Below the pieces are notes generated by a model. That model saw nothing but the letters and a program-made list of their open reading frames with translations. It was not told where the DNA came from and made no database searches. Shown piece after piece: positions 1,550 to 36,232 of a stretch of DNA of 64,000 nt. Made by a program: the position numbers and the translations under genes. The stretch covers positions 1 to 64,000 of IMG/VR virus record IMGVR_UViG_3300027770_000026. One strand, 5' to 3'. How positions within the stretch are numbered: the stretch's first letter is position 1; every line of letters starts with the position of its first letter. The stretch comes from a virus.

Positions 1550-3769
1550 TTACCTAGATGTCGTTAATAACAACTTATCTGTATCTCTATCAAATTGGAA
1601 TGTTACACGCTTTTTAGCTGCACCAATTGCTAGTAATTTACGACTTAGCGGTACCTTAATTAGTTGATCAATCGCCCTACCCATCGGACGTGCGCCCATT
1701 TTCTCGTCGTATCCCTTTTCTAGCAGCAGATCATATGCAGCATCTGTGAGAGCAATCTCACAGTTCTTGTCTGCAATAAGTTCATTAATCTCACGTACAA
1801 ACTTACCTGCAATCGTGCGGATATTTGCACGATCCAGCTTGTTGAATTTGATTACTGCGTCCAGTCGATTGCGGAATTCTGGCGCAAAGAATTCCTTTGT
1901 GGCCTTTTCTTCGTCATCCCTACTTTGATGTATAAAGCCCAAACCAGGTCGTTCTGCTTGTGCAGCACCCAAGTTACTAGTTAATATCACAATACAGCTA
2001 CGGCAGTCTACCCGCTTACCATTGCTGCTGGTAATCCAACCACTGTCCATGATCTGTAGCAGTACATTGCTAACCTGTGGATCTGCTTTTTCAATTTCGT
2101 CTAGTAGCAGTACACAATGAGGATTCTTTTCCACTGCAGAGATTAGCAAGCCGCCGCCAAGATTAGCATCCTCATAGCCAACATATCCAGGAGGTGCGCC
2201 AATTAGCTTGGCAACGCTGTGCTTTTCCTGATATTCACTCATGTCAAACTTAGCAAAGTGAACGCCCATTGCATCGGCGAGCGTCTTAGCTAGTTCAGTC
2301 TTACCTACACCAGTTGGACCTAGGAACAAGAACTGCGCAACAGGACGATTTGGACTCTTAAGTCCTGACCTGCTGATCGTAATACGTTCAATTACCATGT
2401 CCACTGCATGTGTTTGTCCAAACACCCTGTCCTTAATAGTCTTTTCAATGAGGTCAATGCTGTCTGCAGTCTTGATCTTCTCGCTCTTGAACACTTCAAC
2501 AGGCAGCTTAGTAGTCTTGCTCAGTTCCTCATAGATGTCATCACTGTGCAACTTCTTGATCTTCTTAAGACGACTGCGTGTCATAGCAGCATCTAGTATG
2601 TCAATGCACTTGTCGGGCTGCTTACGATCTGAAATCCAACGGTCACTGAGGTCAACACACAGTTCTAACTGTGCAGGAGTCACGTTTACTGCATGGAAGT
2701 CCTGATACTTGCTACGCAGACCCTGCAGAATCTCCACACACAATGCGCGATTTGGCTCGTCAACAGTAATACGATTAAATCGACGCATCATCGCGCGATC
2801 CTTTTCAAAGCTCTTACGGTAATCTTCCCATGTAGTGGCGGCAATTACCTTAAACTCGCGTCGACTTAGCCCTGGCTTAAGCATGTTAGCTAGGTCCATA
2901 CTGCTGTTTTGTCCGGCACCTGCGCCATTTAGCATATGTGCTTCATCGATAAACAACACGCTGTTTGGCTTCTTAGCTAGTGCAGAGGTAACTTCCTTAA
3001 ACCGTTCTTCAAGATCGCCTCGATACTTGGTACCTGCCATCATTGCAGAAATATCTAGACTCCAAATTTCAATCTTGGCAAGTGATTCTGGAATATCCTT
3101 GCTAACGACTCGCTGTGCTAGTCCTTCTACAATAGCAGTCTTACCTACACCCGGATCGCCAATTAGCAACGCATTATGTTTAGTACGACGACTAAGAATG
3201 TGCACCAACTGGTCTAGTTCATTTTCTCGTCCTAACATGGGATCTAGCTTGTTAGTAGCAGCCATGTCGCTGATATTGATACAGTAGGTGCGTAGTACTT
3301 TGGTATCATCGTCGTCAGGCGAGATAGCAGGAACTAAACACTTTACTAGAACTTTCTTAGTAATGCCAAAATTCTTAGCTTGTGTAGCAGCCCAGGACTG
3401 TTGTTCGTCTAGCATGCTATCTAGAATGTCAATACAATCTACTTCGCGCTGCGAATAGAATACACCCTGTCCAAATGCACGATTCATTACTCGTTCAATG
3501 CTTTTAGTTTCTTTTGGCGTGCTGTCGTTTGATTTGGGAATTTCGTTTTCTACGAACGAAACTAATTCCTGCTTATAGTCGTTTACTTTAACATGTAGAG
3601 TTTTGAGTTTAGATACCAGTTCACGATCCTCTTCGAGGATAGCTAGTACTAGTACTTCAATGGTAATGTATTCGCATTCATTCTTACGGGCAATATCGTT
3701 TGCTCGAATAAGAGCTCGCTGCAACGTATGACTTGGTGCTGCGATTAGCATGGGTTTTTCTTTGGCCAT
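1550..3769 (-). CDS. clpA: ClpA-like AAA+ unfoldase
   Basis: The 739-residue protein has the full ClpA plan: Clp N-domain (about 1-140), first AAA+ module with Walker A GDPGVGKT (204-211) and Walker B VLFIDE (271-276), second module with GPTGVGKT (484-491) and VLLLDE (553-558). ClpA (about 758 residues in E. coli) unfolds proteins and feeds them to ClpP. The ClpP-docking tripeptide (IGL in E. coli ClpA) appears here as LGF at 610-612, a form used by ClpC-type partners, so ClpP docking looks possible. No ClpP gene is in the window; host ClpP is the likely partner. The upstream J-domain gene overlaps its start by 25 bases. The N-domain is where ClpS binds, and a ClpS-like gene lies at 53675-54061. 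Strong terminator downstream. Confidence 0.93.
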   Translation of the reverse strand: MAKEKPMLIAAPSHTLQRALIRANDIARKNECEYITIEVLVLAILEEDRELVSKLKTLHVKVNDYKQELVSFVENEIPKSNDSTPKETKSIERVMNRAFGQGVFYSQREVDCIDILDSMLDEQQSWAATQAKNFGITKKVLVKCLVPAISPDDDDTKVLRTYCINISDMAATNKLDPMLGRENELDQLVHILSRRTKHNALLIGDPGVGKTAIVEGLAQRVVSKDIPESLAKIEIWSLDISAMMAGTKYRGDLEERFKEVTSALAKKPNSVLFIDEAHMLNGAGAGQNSSMDLANMLKPGLSRREFKVIAATTWEDYRKSFEKDRAMMRRFNRITVDEPNRALCVEILQGLRSKYQDFHAVNVTPAQLELCVDLSDRWISDRKQPDKCIDILDAAMTRSRLKKIKKLHSDDIYEELSKTTKLPVEVFKSEKIKTADSIDLIEKTIKDRVFGQTHAVDMVIERITISRSGLKSPNRPVAQFLFLGPTGVGKTELAKTLADAMGVHFAKFDMSEYQEKHSVAKLIGAPPGYVGYEDANLGGGLLISAVEKNPHCVLLLDEIEKADPQVSNVLLQIMDSGWITSSNGKRVDCRSCIVILTSNLGAAQAERPGLGFIHQSRDDEEKATKEFFAPEFRNRLDAVIKFNKLDRANIRTIAGKFVREINELIADKNCEIALTDAAYDLLLEKGYDEKMGARPMGRAIDQLIKVPLSRKLLAIGAAKKRVTFQFDRDTDKLLLTTSR

Positions 3770-26795: not shown

Positions 26796-27446
26796 TTACT
26801 TAACTTCGAAGTCGCCAATTCCGTCTGCAACTACTCCAAAAATCCGTTCGGTAGTAACAACTGCAGTCTTCTTAGCTGCAGTCTTGCGCACAGTCTTGGG
26901 ACTAAATGCTTCTTCCACAATTGGGGTTGCAAGATAAGCAAGTACATTCTCAGGCGTGCTTTCAACGTATGGGTCATCACCAGCATTGTTCTTCTTACCT
27001 GGCTCAACAAATGCAGCTTCAATGATGCCATTGTTGATTACTACTGCATAACGCCAACTGCGAACACCAAAGCCCAAATTGTCCTTAGCAACTAGCATTC
27101 CCATCTTGTCTGTAAACTTATCGGAACCGTCTGGTAGCAACTTGACATTCTTGATCTTGAGATCCTTGCCCCAAGCATTCATAGTGAATGCATCGTTAAC
27201 GCTGAGGCAGTAAACCTCATCCACATGCTTGCGGAATGTCTTGTAATTACGTTCAAAACCAGGTAGCTGCTCATTGCTGCAGGTTGGGGTAAACGCACCG
27301 GGTAGTGCAAACAGTACCACACGACGATCCTTGAATAGATCCCGGGTATTAATATCCTGCCAATCGTACAGCCCGTCCTCGTCCTTCACACGAGTACGCA
27401 GTACAACTGCAGGCGCCTTGGTACCAATCAACTTAGACTTAGCCAT
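26796..27446 (-). CDS. Peroxiredoxin (Prx5-like) with basic C-terminal extension
   Basis: Peroxidatic Cys56 in FALPGAFTPTCSNEQLPGF, then CLSVNDAFTMNAWGKDL and DKFTDKMGMLV, all Prx5 hallmarks. The enzyme reduces peroxides. The normal domain ends near residue 165; an extra ~50 residues with a Lys-rich segment (KTVRKTAAKKTAVV) follow and have no known role. Could act with the SOD at 16676. Confidence 0.9.
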   Translation of the reverse strand: MAKSKLIGTKAPAVVLRTRVKDEDGLYDWQDINTRDLFKDRRVVLFALPGAFTPTCSNEQLPGFERNYKTFRKHVDEVYCLSVNDAFTMNAWGKDLKIKNVKLLPDGSDKFTDKMGMLVAKDNLGFGVRSWRYAVVINNGIIEAAFVEPGKKNNAGDDPYVESTPENVLAYLATPIVEEAFSPKTVRKTAAKKTAVVTTERIFGVVADGIGDFEVK

Positions 27447-28686: not shown

Positions 28687-29073
28687 TTAATTTCTACCTG
28701 GCTGTGGTTCACGATGCCACACACCATAGATGCAGTGTACTAGTTCATGACCAAAGAACTCGGGCTCGTAACTGACCTTAGGATCAACCATGTATATGGT
28801 GCAGGTTAAATCATCTTTACGCAGCACACTGAACGCAGCAACGTTCTTAGGAGTAATAGTTCCTTGTATATTATTGCGTTTTGCAATCTCTGCACTTAGT
28901 GCAGCGGCACTGGGCATTAACACTATCTTCATGGGGAACTCTGTGCGTGTAAATGTTTCCTTTTCAAAGTAGTAACCATCTTTGCCCACCTTACCGGTGT
29001 CGCTGTTAGGTCCGCAAGCAACCAGAGCTAGTGCTGCAAAGAATGTTAATATTAATTGTTTAAAGTTTGCCAT
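28687..29073 (-). CDS. Lipoprotein with HExxH zinc-protease motif
   Basis: Start at 29073 (MANFKQLILTFFAALALVAC) because an ACTAAATA box ends 5 bases before it. LALVAC|GPN is a lipobox, so the mature protein would be lipidated and probably periplasm-facing. Near the end, HELVHCIYGVWH is an HExxH zinc motif followed by a third candidate His; it differs from the metzincin consensus by one residue of spacing. Last gene of the cytochrome operon. Confidence 0.65.
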   Translation of the reverse strand: MANFKQLILTFFAALALVACGPNSDTGKVGKDGYYFEKETFTRTEFPMKIVLMPSAAALSAEIAKRNNIQGTITPKNVAAFSVLRKDDLTCTIYMVDPKVSYEPEFFGHELVHCIYGVWHREPQPGRN

Positions 29074-29078
29074 ACTAT

Positions 29079-29086
29079 TATTTAGT
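29079..29086 (-). promoter_or_regulatory. Late promoter ACTAAATA (leaderless class)
   Basis: Five bases before the lipoprotein ATG, inside the end of the cytochrome b-like gene. Confidence 0.5.
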
Positions 29087-29552
29087 AAACATGTACGGTT
29101 ATCACATGCACAAATACGCATATGATCATGATAAACACAATAGGCAAGTGTCCCACATGCCATGCGGAAAACAATCGTTCAAAGCCCTTGCGGTTACGTA
29201 GGTATCGACCTATTATGCCACTGGCTGCTACTATCAACATACTGAATAGTGCTATGTTACTGTTGGGACTGCCCAAATGATAATTGCTGTGATAGAGAAT
29301 AGTAATGGGTCCAAATATACCCAACAGTTGATGTATGTTAAACCATTCTGCAGTTTTACCAATCTTCCACATCCATTCAAATCTTTTGTGCATGGAATAA
29401 GAAAACATCAGTGCCATCAAGCTAGCACCTGTCCAACCTAGTATATAGCCTAACCCGTTGTGTGGGTCAATGAGCCTGTAGGGAGATATGACCCATCCAA
29501 TAAAGATTGTAGTTACGGCCATAACCGTAACTACAACTATGCTAGTTTTCAT
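29082..29552 (-). CDS. Four-helix cytochrome b-like membrane protein
   Basis: 156 residues with four hydrophobic helices. Candidate heme ligands form two pairs spaced 14 residues apart: H74/H88 (FNIHQLLGIFGPITILYHSN) and H135/H149 (HLPIVFIMIICVFVH), the arrangement of bis-His diheme cytochrome b helices. The stretch NIALFSMLIVAASGIIGRYL and the second helix match membrane proteins that accompany multiheme cytochromes in bacteria. It would pass electrons between inner-membrane carriers and the periplasmic cytochrome encoded 6 bases upstream. Confidence 0.75.
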   Translation of the reverse strand: MKTSIVVVTVMAVTTIFIGWVISPYRLIDPHNGLGYILGWTGASLMALMFSYSMHKRFEWMWKIGKTAEWFNIHQLLGIFGPITILYHSNYHLGSPNSNIALFSMLIVAASGIIGRYLRNRKGFERLFSAWHVGHLPIVFIMIICVFVHVITVHVY

Positions 29553-29558
29553 CCTGCC

Positions 29559-30326
29559 TTAAATTAACTTCCGTGTGGCGCGGTAATTAATGGCAAAGAA
29601 TTCGCCTTGCAACATCTTCTGAATGCGTGGATCGTTAATGAGCTGTGTGCATTTGAAGCTGATGCTGCTGTTTACACTATGGCAAGTTTCACAAGAATCG
29701 CTAGTAATTGGGTGTCCGCCCGGAGCATTGATCTTGCCCTTGGCAGTTGTACCATTATGGCAAGTTACACAGCCGGTTGTGATGCCTGCGTGAATTGCAG
29801 CAAAGCTACTATCCCAGTTACGTCCAGTGTTCTTGTGGCATACACCGCAGTCTTGTGTGGTTGGAATGTGGTCACTTGGCTTACCTTGTGCACCATATGT
29901 TCTAAATGCGTTATTGTGACAACTATCACATCTCTGTGTACTTACAGAGGCGTGGTTCATGTTTACACCTGATGTAAATGTCACTGTTGCGTGGCAGCTA
30001 CCGCAGTCTGTAGTTCCAATTGGAATGTGGCTGGTACTGCGTCCAACAGTTGCACTTGTTGGCGAACCGTTGTGGCAAGTTGCACAAACTTTAGGGGTAC
30101 CAATAAATCTACCACCTGCGTGACAGCTGGCGCAGGTTGAACACTTGCCTGTGCTTAGGTGCGCACCAGTTAGCGGAAAGTTTGGGTGAATGGTTTCGTA
30201 GAGGGTGCATTCTGCAGCAGATGCGTCCGGAGAAAAAGTAGTTAGTACTGCTGTGGGTATTGCATAAGTTGCAAACACGATTACAGCCATAAGAATAGAC
30301 GCAAAGAAACTCTTTAATTTCGCCAT
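29559..30326 (-). CDS. Seven-heme periplasmic cytochrome c
   Basis: 255 residues. Signal peptide (helix ~7-30, cleavage near SAA|E39). Seven CxxCH heme-attachment motifs: CASCH 65-69, CATCH 81-85, CGSCH 108-112, CDSCH 133-137, CGVCH 160-164, CVTCH 186-190, CETCH 212-216. Exactly seven further histidines (47, 56, 100, 125, 153, 179, 205) could give bis-His ligation of every heme. The class resembles cytochrome c3/c7-type electron carriers. Heme attachment would rely on host Ccm machinery. An exact TATAAATA box at 30350-30357 indicates late expression. I know of no standard phage function for such a protein. Confidence 0.93.
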   Translation of the reverse strand: MAKLKSFFASILMAVIVFATYAIPTAVLTTFSPDASAAECTLYETIHPNFPLTGAHLSTGKCSTCASCHAGGRFIGTPKVCATCHNGSPTSATVGRSTSHIPIGTTDCGSCHATVTFTSGVNMNHASVSTQRCDSCHNNAFRTYGAQGKPSDHIPTTQDCGVCHKNTGRNWDSSFAAIHAGITTGCVTCHNGTTAKGKINAPGGHPITSDSCETCHSVNSSISFKCTQLINDPRIQKMLQGEFFAINYRATRKLI

Positions 30327-30349
30327 GATAATGGTCCCCGTTAGGATAG

Positions 30350-30357
30350 TATTTATA
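30350..30357 (-). promoter_or_regulatory. T4-type late promoter TATAAATA
   Basis: Exact consensus, 23 bases before the cytochrome ATG with GGGGACC between; lies just upstream of the barrel gene stop. Confidence 0.7.
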
Positions 30358-30358
30358 C

Positions 30359-32260
30359 TTAGAAGTCGTAACGGTACCCAATGTAAAAGGTTTGATTGGT
30401 GAATACGGGACTTACTTGATAGATGGTTACAGCATATGGACGTAGTATTAAGGATCTAGCATACTGTGCTTCCAGCTTGCCGTGCTCGCCAAATGCGTAT
30501 ATTATGCGTAGGTTTGCACTAATTGTGCGCGATGTGTGCGCTATGTCGTCATAGCGTAAGGTAGCAGACAAGCTGTTTGTATCCCAAAATCTATAGTTGT
30601 TGGCCACTGTAACAAAGTAGCTGCGGCGTTCACCAATGGTACGATTGGCTACAAATTCAACTGTGTTGTGAGAGTCCCAAACGTTTTCGCCGGACAAGTG
30701 TAGTGTTAGCGAATAGTTGTTGCGTGTGCCCACAGTTACTGGCACGGGATCAAACTGTGGCGAAATAGTAAATCCCGGAGTAGTACTCAAGTTGGTTACT
30801 TGCGCATCACCGGTCAGCGTCCATGTTTTATCTATGGTATAGCCCGCACCTACTACTAGCGAACTAGCTATGGGTGTGGTGGTGATAATATAACGATAGA
30901 TGTCGTTTGAATTCAATCCTGACCTAGCTAATAATTCTCCCACTGAATTGTATACTTGACGTTCGGGTTCCAGTATACCTAAGCCCAATGCAACGTCTGC
31001 GTATGGTATAGGACTGCGCCGGCGTTCGTAGCTAGCAAATATGTTGTAGCCGTTAAAGTAGTGTATGCCCTGAAAGTTAACCTTGTTAAACTTGCTGTAC
31101 TGAAAGTCATATTCGGTATTCAACAGTGCAGTAGTGGAAGTACCACCGTATTCTACATCTGCACCCAGTGCCATGCGTTCAACAAATCCATCTGCTATGC
31201 TGCGATTGATGTATAATGAAGTAGTGGTATTGTTAAATGGTCGCCATTCAAACCCCGCACCCACAAAGCGTCTAGTGGCAGTAGTTTCTCCGGTATATGG
31301 TACACCTGCTGCAAACGTCCACTTGTATTGGTCTTCGGTGCGGTACCAAGCACTGACTCCATCATACCGTCCAATGGCACCAGCTGAGGGGTTTTGTCTA
31401 CCCAGTCGTATGTTGTATCTAACGAATGTATCTTCAAAGTTTACATAAGCAATGTTAAGTCTTGCAGTGTTATCTTTATTCTCTAGTAGATCTCTTGCTG
31501 CGGTAAAGCGTAAACGACTGCTCCATATGTATTGATTGTGATGACGTTTGGCATCCAGTTGCAGTCCAGTTAAGCTGCTTATCTGAGAAGTGTTCCACTG
31601 TATGATACCTGCACTGTTACTGGTTGCACCAAAGTATAGATATTCACTAGCGGACCCTGATAGTTCAAAGCTGTCGCCTTGTCGTGGTGCGCGTTCCTTA
31701 AAGTTGTTTGCTGTTTCCGTGGGCTCAATTATTTCCAATGCCATTAAACGCTGCTGTACTCGCACACGGTCGTCAGTTTTCACATCATATAACTTTAAGT
31801 ACAGTGCGTATTCTACTTTGGCTTTGTCATACAGTTTGGACTTTTCGTATGCATACCCCAATAGTTCGTGTGCTTCTCGTGCGGTGGCTGGTGGCTGTGT
31901 GAGAATGAACGAACGTAGATTATTGATTGCTACAGTGTAGGGACCTTCTCTGCTGGTTAATACTTGTCGTGCTTCGCGTATGAGTTCTTCAGGTGGGCGT
32001 GTATCAAATGTTACTATGGGTTGATCTGGATCCGTTGGTGTGGCTGTAGCAGTGCGTGGTCGAGGTTTTGTCTCGGTGGGAACTGTTTCCACAATAGGCG
32101 GTAACCAACGTACAATGGTTACAGTTTCTGTTCTGCGTCGTGGTACTGGAGCTGCAGGTGGCGCAACTGGTGGACGATTAATAATGCCACTGACCTGGCT
32201 ATAAGTCACAGCGGGATATACTGCTGCACACAGTACGGCTACAACTAAAAACCTAATCAT
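30359..32260 (-). CDS. TPR plus outer-membrane beta-barrel (porin-like) protein
   Basis: 633 residues. Signal peptide (1-~21), Pro/Thr-rich linker with APPAAPVPRRRTETV, TPR-like helices at ~95-180 (AREAHELLGYAYEKSKLYDK), then ~450 residues of amphipathic strands ending GYRYDF with terminal Phe. The segment RLGRQNPSAGAIGRYDGV resembles TPR-barrel proteins that occur beside cytochrome c genes in bacteria. With the cytochromes downstream it could form a porin-cytochrome conduit, though the N-terminal CxxC of MtrB-type porins is absent. Alternative: a polysaccharide or NfrA-like exporter. Confidence 0.78.
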   Translation of the reverse strand: MIRFLVVAVLCAAVYPAVTYSQVSGIINRPPVAPPAAPVPRRRTETVTIVRWLPPIVETVPTETKPRPRTATATPTDPDQPIVTFDTRPPEELIREARQVLTSREGPYTVAINNLRSFILTQPPATAREAHELLGYAYEKSKLYDKAKVEYALYLKLYDVKTDDRVRVQQRLMALEIIEPTETANNFKERAPRQGDSFELSGSASEYLYFGATSNSAGIIQWNTSQISSLTGLQLDAKRHHNQYIWSSRLRFTAARDLLENKDNTARLNIAYVNFEDTFVRYNIRLGRQNPSAGAIGRYDGVSAWYRTEDQYKWTFAAGVPYTGETTATRRFVGAGFEWRPFNNTTTSLYINRSIADGFVERMALGADVEYGGTSTTALLNTEYDFQYSKFNKVNFQGIHYFNGYNIFASYERRRSPIPYADVALGLGILEPERQVYNSVGELLARSGLNSNDIYRYIITTTPIASSLVVGAGYTIDKTWTLTGDAQVTNLSTTPGFTISPQFDPVPVTVGTRNNYSLTLHLSGENVWDSHNTVEFVANRTIGERRSYFVTVANNYRFWDTNSLSATLRYDDIAHTSRTISANLRIIYAFGEHGKLEAQYARSLILRPYAVTIYQVSPVFTNQTFYIGYRYDF

Positions 32261-32262
32261 TG

Positions 32263-32655
32263 CTACTTGGTGATGCGGCGAGCAACCTTCTTCTTGGTCT
32301 TCTTAGCAGCAGTCTTAGGTGGGGCCTTGCTTAAAAAATGATACTTGTGGAATATCACAATCCATACAAACAGTGCAGCCAATCCTATGTTAAGTAATAT
32401 CTCGCCAGGAGGAGCTTTTACTGTATCAATGATCATGCCGTGACGTGGTATCATATCATAGTAAATGGTATTCATAGCGTTCCATGCTGAAGTAGCAATA
32501 ATGGAAACCAGTGCTATTTTAAGCGACCAATGTTGTAGTACAGGCCATTTGTAAATAATGCTGTTACCGTTACCAAACAGCAGTACAAAGAACGCAGTCA
32601 TTGCCAGACAAATAACAATATTAGCCGCTATATTCAACAGGTACATGAATTCCAT
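32263..32655 (-). CDS. Three-helix membrane protein with basic tail
   Basis: 130 residues, hydrophobic helices at ~5-27, 45-65 and 85-105, ending KTAAKKTKKKVARRITK. Topology suits a class I holin-like protein, but it sits at the head of the cytochrome operon. Two bases separate it from the barrel gene. Confidence 0.6.
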   Translation of the reverse strand: MEFMYLLNIAANIVICLAMTAFFVLLFGNGNSIIYKWPVLQHWSLKIALVSIIATSAWNAMNTIYYDMIPRHGMIIDTVKAPPGEILLNIGLAALFVWIVIFHKYHFLSKAPPKTAAKKTKKKVARRITK

Positions 32656-32665
32656 TGTCTACTCC

Positions 32666-33028
32666 TTATCTTTTTCGCACAGTCTTTTTTCGAGCTATGG
32701 GTTTCTTTCTAGTTAGCTTACGCCTATTAGGAATTATTTCCTCTGCAGCATCGGGTATGAATTTTTTAATGGCATATTCAATACCAGTTAACCCAAGAAA
32801 ACCCAGTATGAATGCAATACCAAAAGTAAGATTTTGATTACTAATATTTAAAGTATCAACTACAATTGGGGTTATATAATTGGCGCTGCCAATACCGGTG
32901 GCAATACTAACAGCAATGCTGTATAAATGCGTATTAGCTCCTTTTTTAATGGTTAGAAGCGAACCAAATAATCCCGACACAATAAGCCCCGCATTGATTC
33001 CAACTTCCTGAAGAAGATTCTCCTGCAT
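32666..33028 (-). CDS. Holin-like membrane protein, 120 aa
   Basis: Start at 33028 (MQENLLQEVGINAG) with GGGGGT 7 bases upstream; a start at 33043 lacks a ribosome site. Three hydrophobic segments (IVSGLFGSLLTI, YSIAVSIATGIGSANYITPIV, FGIAFILGFLGLTGIEYA) and a basic tail KKPIARKKTVRKR match phage holin-type proteins. Confidence 0.62.
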   Translation of the reverse strand: MQENLLQEVGINAGLIVSGLFGSLLTIKKGANTHLYSIAVSIATGIGSANYITPIVVDTLNISNQNLTFGIAFILGFLGLTGIEYAIKKFIPDAAEEIIPNRRKLTRKKPIARKKTVRKR

Positions 33029-33071
33029 TGTCGTTACCCCCATAACCTAGTATTTATTCACAGGGATAAAT

Positions 33072-34306: not shown

Positions 34307-36232
34307 ATGAAAAGAAGTATTAGTTCACGCACAATATTAGAAGATAAACGCGCATTGTTAGAAGATCTATGCGAAGGCATGAATCTCAGGGATCGACTGC
34401 TAACAGAAGAAATCTACAATGAGTTTCATGATATTGGACGCATGATTTCCGAAGCCCAACTGACACAGGATCAGATACAGAAGCTGTTTGCAGCAGTATC
34501 CAAGGGTGCAGAAAAGGGTTGGAACGTGGACTTACCTGGTGGTGATCCAGATATTGGACCAGCAGGCGAAGGTGGCAACAAGACACTAATGGGCAAGATC
34601 TCGGGCGCGTGGCAAAAGCTCAAGAGTAAGATTGCACAAAGTGGCCCAGTAAGCGGATTTGACGTTACAGTAGACAAGCTACAAAAGCAAATCTCTGCAA
34701 AGTCAGGACCAGACGGAAAGCTAACCAAGGCAATCGCAGCATATAGAAAGTTTGGTGATAAGCATCCCGTCATGCAGGGTGTTGTTATTGCAGGTCTAAC
34801 TGCGGCAGCAGCAATGGGCGGCGGACTAGGCCTAGGTGCAGTTGCAGGCGTGGCAGGCGGACTAAGAACACTGGACCGCATGCTAATGGGTGATCGTGCT
34901 AGTAGCGCACTATGGAAGGGCTTCAAGGCAGGCGCAGTTACATACGGCGTTGGTTCAATCATCCAGGGTGTACAAGGTGGGCAGACTGCCACAGATACTG
35001 GTGCCGGACAAACTGCATCAGCGCAGCCGGCAGCAACACCAGCTCCAACTGGTGTAGATACAGCCACTCAAACTGTTGCAGCAGCTAAGGGCGATACACT
35101 AAGTCAGATTGCTCAGAAGATGGACGTTAGTGTTAAGGATCTAGTGCAAGCAAACCCACAAATAACCAATCCTAATGATTTGGGGCTTGGTGAGATTGTC
35201 AATATACCAAGTGCAACAGGAAATGCTGTATATCAAGGTGGAGTGGGAACTGCGTCCGACACTGCTGCTAAGGTCGCAAGCGGTCAATATACTCCAAGTC
35301 GCTACGGTATTAAAGAAAGCGTAGACTGGGACAAGATTTGCACTACTTTTGCAATCCAAGAAAGTATGAAGATGCCACTAAAGAGCGCAGTATACCTAAC
35401 ACCATATGGTGTACAGCAGGTAATGGAAACTGTTGAAAAGTATAAGGATGAACTAGACGAAGGTATTTGGGATGCAGTTAAGGCTGGATGGAACACTTCC
35501 AAGAACAAGATCACAACAGACAAGTTGGACTTGTGGTGGCGTAGAAACCGCGGCGAGAATCCAACAGACGGCCCAGTAGACAAACAAGTTGTCGTCGACT
35601 TCCTCAAGAAGATGGGCGTTAAGAGTGGTCTGGTTGATCGTGCGTTTAAGGAAGTTGGTATTCCGGACGAAGTTAACAAAGACGATGTTCCACCAACACC
35701 TACACCTACACCTACACCTACACCTACACCTACACCTACACCTACACCTACACCTACACCTACACCAAAACCAACACCAACTCCTCCGCCAACACCTACA
35801 CCTGGCGATAAAGAGCCTAAGCCCGGTGAGGTAGAACCTAAGCCAACACCTAATCCTGGTGACACTAAGCCACAGGATGGCGGTCAGGATGCAACACCGG
35901 CTCCAGCACCATCAATTACTCCTGCCAAGAGCAGCCAGGAATTGCTCTCAGGTCTCAATGCATTGTGGGATGACAATGCGGAATGGATCTACGAGAAGGG
36001 CGTTGGTAAGGATCTAATCAATTGGTTACAGGCCAAGATCAAGAAGTATCACACCGGTCCAGTTGGAGTTGGCCCAACTGATAAGAAAACTGTCAGTAAG
36101 TACGGTCTTGCAGAAGCCAAGCGCCGTAAGATGCTGATGATCGAACGCAAGATTGCTCAATACGAACAGCTAATTGCCGAGAACAAGAAAAAGCAAAAGA
36201 AGACGCTAACCGAATCTCGTAAAAAGAGATAA
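34307..36232 (+). CDS. LysM-domain protein with Thr-Pro repeat stalk, 641 aa
   Basis: N-terminal helical region, a Gly/Ala-rich membrane-like stretch at ~155-185 (GVVIAGLTAAAAMGGGLGLG), a LysM domain at ~260-300 (AAKGDTLSQIAQKMDVSVKD... GEIVNIPS), two related C-terminal modules, and a Pro-Thr spacer of about 14 repeats at ~463-492. LysM binds peptidoglycan. A virion protein that contacts the cell wall, or a lysis-related protein, is likely. It has its own late promoter and terminator. Confidence 0.75.
   Translation: MKRSISSRTILEDKRALLEDLCEGMNLRDRLLTEEIYNEFHDIGRMISEAQLTQDQIQKLFAAVSKGAEKGWNVDLPGGDPDIGPAGEGGNKTLMGKISGAWQKLKSKIAQSGPVSGFDVTVDKLQKQISAKSGPDGKLTKAIAAYRKFGDKHPVMQGVVIAGLTAAAAMGGGLGLGAVAGVAGGLRTLDRMLMGDRASSALWKGFKAGAVTYGVGSIIQGVQGGQTATDTGAGQTASAQPAATPAPTGVDTATQTVAAAKGDTLSQIAQKMDVSVKDLVQANPQITNPNDLGLGEIVNIPSATGNAVYQGGVGTASDTAAKVASGQYTPSRYGIKESVDWDKICTTFAIQESMKMPLKSAVYLTPYGVQQVMETVEKYKDELDEGIWDAVKAGWNTSKNKITTDKLDLWWRRNRGENPTDGPVDKQVVVDFLKKMGVKSGLVDRAFKEVGIPDEVNKDDVPPTPTPTPTPTPTPTPTPTPTPTPTPKPTPTPPPTPTPGDKEPKPGEVEPKPTPNPGDTKPQDGGQDATPAPAPSITPAKSSQELLSGLNALWDDNAEWIYEKGVGKDLINWLQAKIKKYHTGPVGVGPTDKKTVSKYGLAEAKRRKMLMIERKIAQYEQLIAENKKKQKKTLTESRKKR
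35696..35764. repeat. Hexanucleotide tandem repeat (acacct)n
   Basis: About 11-12 near-perfect copies encode Thr-Pro dipeptides in the LysM protein; length likely varies between strains. Confidence 0.9.

Follow-up and report, generated by a model that had tools for sequence, protein, structure and literature searches.

A trimmed PCC3-type gene set with a late promoter in a T4-like jumbo phage, probably offering the infected cell an electron path to its surface

The window analysed here comprises bases 1-64000 of the virus record IMGVR_UViG_3300027770_000026 (265,892 bases), and its feature of interest is a cassette of three genes encoding an outer-membrane TPR-barrel protein, a secreted seven-heme cytochrome and an inner-membrane protein (IMP) with two His pairs. 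The cassette was compared with PCC3, a gene cluster with a putative role in extracellular electron transfer that is known from Proteobacteria (Gallionellaceae, Leptothrix, Methylotenera and others) and consists of a porin, extracellular and periplasmic cytochromes and an IMP with two WX3HX13H motifs and an SGXXG motif (He et al. 2017, PMC5566968). An earlier note, made from the letters of the window, had described the three genes as consecutive and co-oriented, which they are, all on the minus strand. In minus-strand order, the locus reads holin-like gene, small membrane protein, TPR-barrel, seven-heme cytochrome, His-pair membrane protein and small lipoprotein; the core features are as follows.

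30359..32260, minus strand: outer-membrane protein, homologue of the PCC3 porin (signal peptide, TPR, barrel, profile matches)
30350..30357 of the window, minus strand: T4-type late promoter TATAAATA, 24 bases ahead of the cytochrome ATG
29559..30326, minus strand: secreted seven-heme c-type cytochrome (seven CxxCH and seven further His; Pfam matches)
29082..29552, minus strand: inner-membrane protein, predicted to be di-heme b-type and quinone-interacting (two WX3HX13H and SGxxG)

The cytochrome is a protein of 255 amino acids with a signal peptide and exactly seven CxxCH motifs, accompanied by exactly seven other His residues (H47, 56, 100, 125, 153, 179 and 205), in agreement with the count in the earlier note. 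All 14 His (seven within CxxCH, seven outside) were invariant across seven viral homologues, and bis-His coordination of the hemes is expected. Pfam matches were obtained with Cytochrome_C7 (E 2.3e-10), Paired_CXXCH (1.2e-8) and Cytochrom_CIII (9.6e-8). In the simple open reading frame (ORF) set of the 265,892-base record, this is the sole CxxCH protein, and no counterpart of the ~21-heme periplasmic cytochrome of PCC3 was found in that set; a second CxxCH-like DNA match at position 133686 of the record was discarded, since none of these ORFs reads it in frame. Giant cytochromes of bacteria align by their N-termini with most of the phage cytochrome, at 50-88 bits, and continue past the aligned part with tens of further hemes, a repeat extension that the phage protein lacks. 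Judged by this alignment, the phage cytochrome has its homologue in the N-terminal module of the extracellular cytochrome of PCC3, and in that module only.

The IMP comprises 156 amino acids, as against about 300 in PCC3, and carries W70-X3-H74-X13-H88, W131-X3-H135-X13-H149 and S111-G-x-x-G115; all of these motif residues were invariant in an eight-sequence alignment with bacterial relatives. Absent is the soluble stretch of roughly 130 residues seen between helices 4 and 5 in the PCC3 protein. By motifs and alignment, the phage protein is the PCC3 IMP minus its large loop, with both heme-b His pairs kept. The PCC3 protein is thought to carry two b hemes and to contact quinones, and it has five helices (PMC5566968); of the four-helix protein with two His pairs described previously for the window, the His pairs stood and the helix number did not, given the five helices published for the bacterial family. 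A search of the PDB with the IMP profile returned noise only, and the IMP alignment was too diverged for scanning viral sequences.

The TPR-barrel protein (633 amino acids) is composed of a signal peptide, a disordered proline-rich linker, TPR helices at residues ~90-178, confirmed by profile, and a beta-barrel with Phe as last residue, which bears out the earlier description of a TPR-plus-barrel protein ending in Phe. Of the structure models of the protein, the first was poor (pLDDT 64) and the second better (pLDDT 76.5), and the modelling supports a TPR domain plus a barrel of 22 predicted strands. The barrel profile (hidden Markov model A2) also matched beside bacterial IMP-21heme-17heme clusters, an arrangement published for PCC3.

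The surrounding record carries the marks of a phage. A Gp23 major capsid protein (MCP), characteristic of T4-like phages, is encoded at 216524-217486 of the record (E 4.8e-101), its gene resembling the counterparts in Vibrio phage 2.275.O, Escherichia phage A4 and other large T4-like phages; 22 tRNA genes lie in the window, and both flanks of the cassette hold phage-family proteins. The source is a T4-like jumbo phage from a lake. Viral scans yielded nine, later nineteen loci, giving 13 lineages once near-copies had been merged; the gene set, sought in other phages, was thus recovered as the barrel and cytochrome pair in 13 lineages and with the membrane protein in five. In all 12 lineages whose contig reaches that far, the barrel gene immediately precedes the cytochromes, 9 of the 13 carry an extra 4-6-heme cytochrome between the barrel and the seven-heme cytochrome, and a second contig (G001) shows an identical layout. 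The IMP adjoins the pair in the window, in a 327-kb record (before the barrel) and in a 166-kb record (after the cytochrome). Lineages with the cassette span two unrelated Gp23 capsid groups. Bacterial contamination, named in the earlier note as what would refute its reading, is ruled out to the extent that sequence allows, because the pair recurs in 13 phage lineages and six records encode T4-like Gp23. Among 50,697 records of isolate phages, no homologue of the cytochrome or the barrel was found.

Comparison of MCP and barrel identities revealed 33% and 48%, respectively, for G000 versus G004 and 70% and 26% for G000 versus G016; since the histories of the two proteins disagree, the cassette moves between phage lineages. 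In five lineages, it is situated in or beside a tRNA array. The dN/dS values in the closest pair were 0.13 for the barrel, 0.07 for the seven-heme cytochrome and 0.04 for the four-heme partner, and the cassette genes are clearly under purifying selection.

The promoter TATAAATA occurs in 13 copies in the record, 10 of which lie within 60 bases upstream of an ORF start. This is the highest upstream-of-ORF share among all 56 anagrams of the 8-mer (anagram average 9.6%), and the placement is therefore beyond chance. The genes downstream of the copies include those for tape measure, baseplate wedge, tail tube, tail spike and two virion structural proteins, as well as head genes, and late promoters ahead of virion genes again mark the record as T4-like. 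In 11 of 12 phage lineages, the core TAAATA precedes the cytochrome by 29-48 bases, as against 67 among the 201 ORFs of those loci (binomial P about 5e-5, to be taken as a guide only because the lineages are related). The exact late promoter and the late expression that the earlier note had claimed are both backed by these data, since the motif is the same as that before virion genes; they support a cytochrome that would be switched on late, together with the virion genes.

In bacteria, the barrel profile matched 25 of 187 genomes (two marginal) in the family and 49 of 369 genomes in the class of a Methylophilaceae metagenome-assembled genome (MAG). Of 40 bacterial loci fetched, 39 have a multiheme cytochrome next to the barrel, and the remaining one stops at a contig edge; 12 of these loci also have an IMP upstream, the typical order being IMP, 21-to-24-heme cytochrome, giant cytochrome, barrel. 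The closest cellular copy was found in the Methylophilaceae MAG itself (JABFRO010000001.1, locus L027), where a seven-heme cytochrome 50% identical to that of the phage is followed by a barrel of 32% identity and a five-heme cytochrome. Unlike the phage cassette, this copy sits on the chromosome, with an ammonium transporter and transposases as neighbours, and the MAG has its own IMP and 27-heme gene pair at another locus. Its barrel nests within the viral barrel cluster (98/89) in an unrooted tree, so transfer may have taken place either way between phage and cell. A methylotrophic betaproteobacterium is a fair guess for the host. Methylotenera and Methylobacter of humic bogs and lakes have been proposed to respire humics or Fe(III) via such genes (PMC6344600).

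Several observations were made alongside. The largest cytochromes met were bacterial frames with 73 and 69 CxxCH (L028:4257-9755 and L140:10657-15771, respectively). In a Bacteroidetes MAG (L030:1-9731), a partial IMP-like frame precedes cytochromes of 20, 41 and 9 hemes and what may be a barrel with a terminal Phe, constituting a PCC3-like cluster outside Proteobacteria. Among the phage records, IMGVR_UViG_3300045970_000182 (L061) starts in the cytochrome and IMGVR_UViG_3300045970_000591 (L180), from the same sample, ends just after a barrel, so that the two are perhaps pieces of one phage; a 369-kb phage record contains a tmRNA gene (L060:16643-16982). Five phage barrels have some 85 extra N-terminal residues (MSHxSVLSxxNFEQLLNEDNF...) ahead of the hydrophobic segment, which the barrel of the window lacks. 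These barrels and the neighbouring genes of the window are listed below.

L047:7220-9409, L062:7240-9429, L053:5696-7882, L049:4927-7110, L040:1134-3323: phage barrels with N-terminal extension
32666..33043, minus strand: holin-like protein (phrog_2359, E 5.1e-11), upstream of the cassette
32263..32655, minus strand: small hydrophobic membrane protein, between holin and barrel
28687..29073, minus strand: small predicted lipoprotein (lipobox LVAC, HELVH as HExxH motif), directly downstream of the IMP gene

The holin-like protein, recognised as such in the earlier note and by its family match, is a neighbour and stands outside the conduit. No family match above background was obtained for the small hydrophobic protein. 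The start of the lipoprotein was moved, by inspection, to an internal ATG near 29073, just past the IMP gene, which is probably the true start. Of its previous designation as a lipoprotein protease candidate, the lipobox and the HELVH motif held, and family searches returned no match, to a protease family or otherwise; its membership in the conduit is doubtful. Further along the window, a peroxiredoxin-like ORF of 216 amino acids with a PGAFTPTCS motif, assigned by its sequence, lies downstream of the cassette (26796-27446, minus strand), an ATP-dependent protease of phage family phrog_4871 (E 4.6e-230) at 1550-3769 (minus strand) and, near the holin on the opposite strand, a LysM-like protein with a long Pro-Thr repeat at 34307-36232 (plus strand).

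We propose that the cassette is a miniaturised, mobile, phage-borne PCC3, which probably provides the infected cell with a late quinone-to-surface electron path. Late in infection, the IMP would draw electrons from the quinone pool by quinol oxidation, and the periplasmic carrier would be a PCC3 cytochrome of the host with 21-27 hemes, if it has one, or else the phage's own cytochromes. The seven-heme cytochrome, loaded with heme by the host Ccm machinery, would dock in or under the barrel, alone or with its 4-6-heme partner, and take the electrons across the outer membrane. Flow would most likely be outward, onto humic substances or Fe(III), which would let a host of methylotrophic or similar lifestyle, living in humic water poor in oxygen, keep oxidising its substrate and would keep quinones oxidised and the proton-motive force up until virions are finished. 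With the cytochrome repeats and the IMP loop lost, what remains is probably the working core.

These data suggest that phages can rewire the respiration of the infected cell. More tentatively, and at somewhat less than even confidence, phages may make infected bacteria respire externally through a transferable conduit common to unrelated T4-like lineages, sustaining the late-phase proton-motive force. If so, extracellular electron transfer would join what phages can carry, phage infection would be tied to humic and iron respiration, and viruses would act directly on humic and iron redox cycling in lakes; the cassette would also be the smallest PCC3-like set in nature and could help to tell which cluster parts are essential.

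Several points weigh against the proposed electron path. In the cited literature, PCC3 is itself a putative electron conduit; it was down-regulated on Fe(II) in Sideroxydans ES-1 (PMC8788666) and had low values in the expression data of a magnetite study (PMC12016527). With no large periplasmic cytochrome in the phage, the gap between inner and outer membrane is accounted for only if the host closes it. Only 5 of the 13 lineages yielded an IMP (some of the records are fragmentary), and in two lineages, it lies about 60-70 kb from the barrel. Both barrel models matched generic porins only, the 22-strand model weakly (template-modelling score about 0.3), and no porin-cytochrome complex was among the best 50 fold-search matches of the barrel model.

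The same conduit might run in reverse and power late infection by drawing electrons off Fe(II) or reduced humics and delivering them to the quinone pool or to oxidases. PCC3 was first found via a search of iron oxidisers (PMC5566968), and Mto/Mtr-type porin-cytochrome conduits are held to be reversible (PMC10734462). We regard this as unlikely, because PCC3 showed no induction by Fe(II) in ES-1 (PMC8788666), a result that speaks slightly for some role besides iron oxidation, and because the closest cellular relatives are methylotrophs, with reduced carbon as donor.

That the barrel alters the outer membrane, by receptor masking, superinfection exclusion or weakening of the envelope for lysis, with the cytochrome as passenger or plug, is improbable. 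Phages do encode porins: the fold search of the viral library returned weak porin matches, phage OmpC-like proteins among them, and a holin lies upstream in this phage. Masking, however, needs neither the invariance of all 14 heme-ligand His nor the second cytochrome of most lineages nor the heme-b IMP retained in five, and the dN/dS values indicate that the cytochrome is more constrained than the barrel. It is still harder to accept the cytochromes as a periplasmic electron store or a peroxide or radical sink, as might be read from the peroxiredoxin-like ORF nearby and from the proposal that large multiheme proteins act as capacitors (PMC10734462), given that the constant pairing with the TPR-barrel in phages and bacteria would be left unexplained. 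That the genes were recently captured from a host, or entered as contamination of the assembly, and do nothing for the phage is hardly credible, despite the bacterial homologues, in view of the 13 lineages, the identical layout in G001, Gp23 in six records, the late promoter core in 11 of 12 lineages, purifying selection and the deep viral cluster.

Compared with known systems, the electron path proposed here is closest to PCC3, with which the phage shares a homologous porin, an IMP with both WX3HX13H pairs and SGXXG, gene adjacency and a cytochrome with homology to the N-terminal stretch of the extracellular one. In contrast to PCC3, the set is phage-borne, has a T4-type late promoter, an IMP of about half size and a varying gene order, lacks a large periplasmic cytochrome and holds 7 hemes (plus 4-6) against a published median of 34 plus 21. 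Because the IMP residues are kept and the loop is gone, and because the cytochrome aligns with the N-terminus of giant cytochromes, the phage set is, by layout and motifs, a trimmed PCC3 from which the 21-heme periplasmic part is missing; the published PCC3 proteins entered this comparison by description. Homology to PCC3 and the late promoter are well supported at the sequence level.

With MtrAB, MtoAB and PioAB, the phage set has in common a large barrel plus a multiheme cytochrome, in the phage a putative means of crossing the outer membrane. Membership in that group was rejected: the decaheme DmsE/MtrA model scored 29.6 bits against a cut-off of 192.2, and the barrel did not match MtrB/PioB. 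The conduit that the earlier note had posited by analogy to MtrAB/PioAB has thus gained a stronger footing than guessed, through homology, with PCC3 in place of the systems named; of the families put forward for checking, the cytochrome matched Cytochrome_C7 and the barrel failed to match MtrB/PioB.

The large freshwater phages with pmoC (Chen et al. 2020, PMC7674155) resemble the present phage in size, habitat and carriage of host energy-metabolism genes, but cytochromes are not mentioned for them. No AmoC/PmoC match was obtained in the present phages, and control genomes were likewise silent, so this search had no positive control. Archaeal Borg elements, which are not phages, are discussed in the literature together with multiheme cytochromes. 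No published report of a phage-borne porin-cytochrome set was found in a literature search of partial coverage without preprints. PCC3 was already known; new here is its viral, miniaturised and mobile form with a late promoter.

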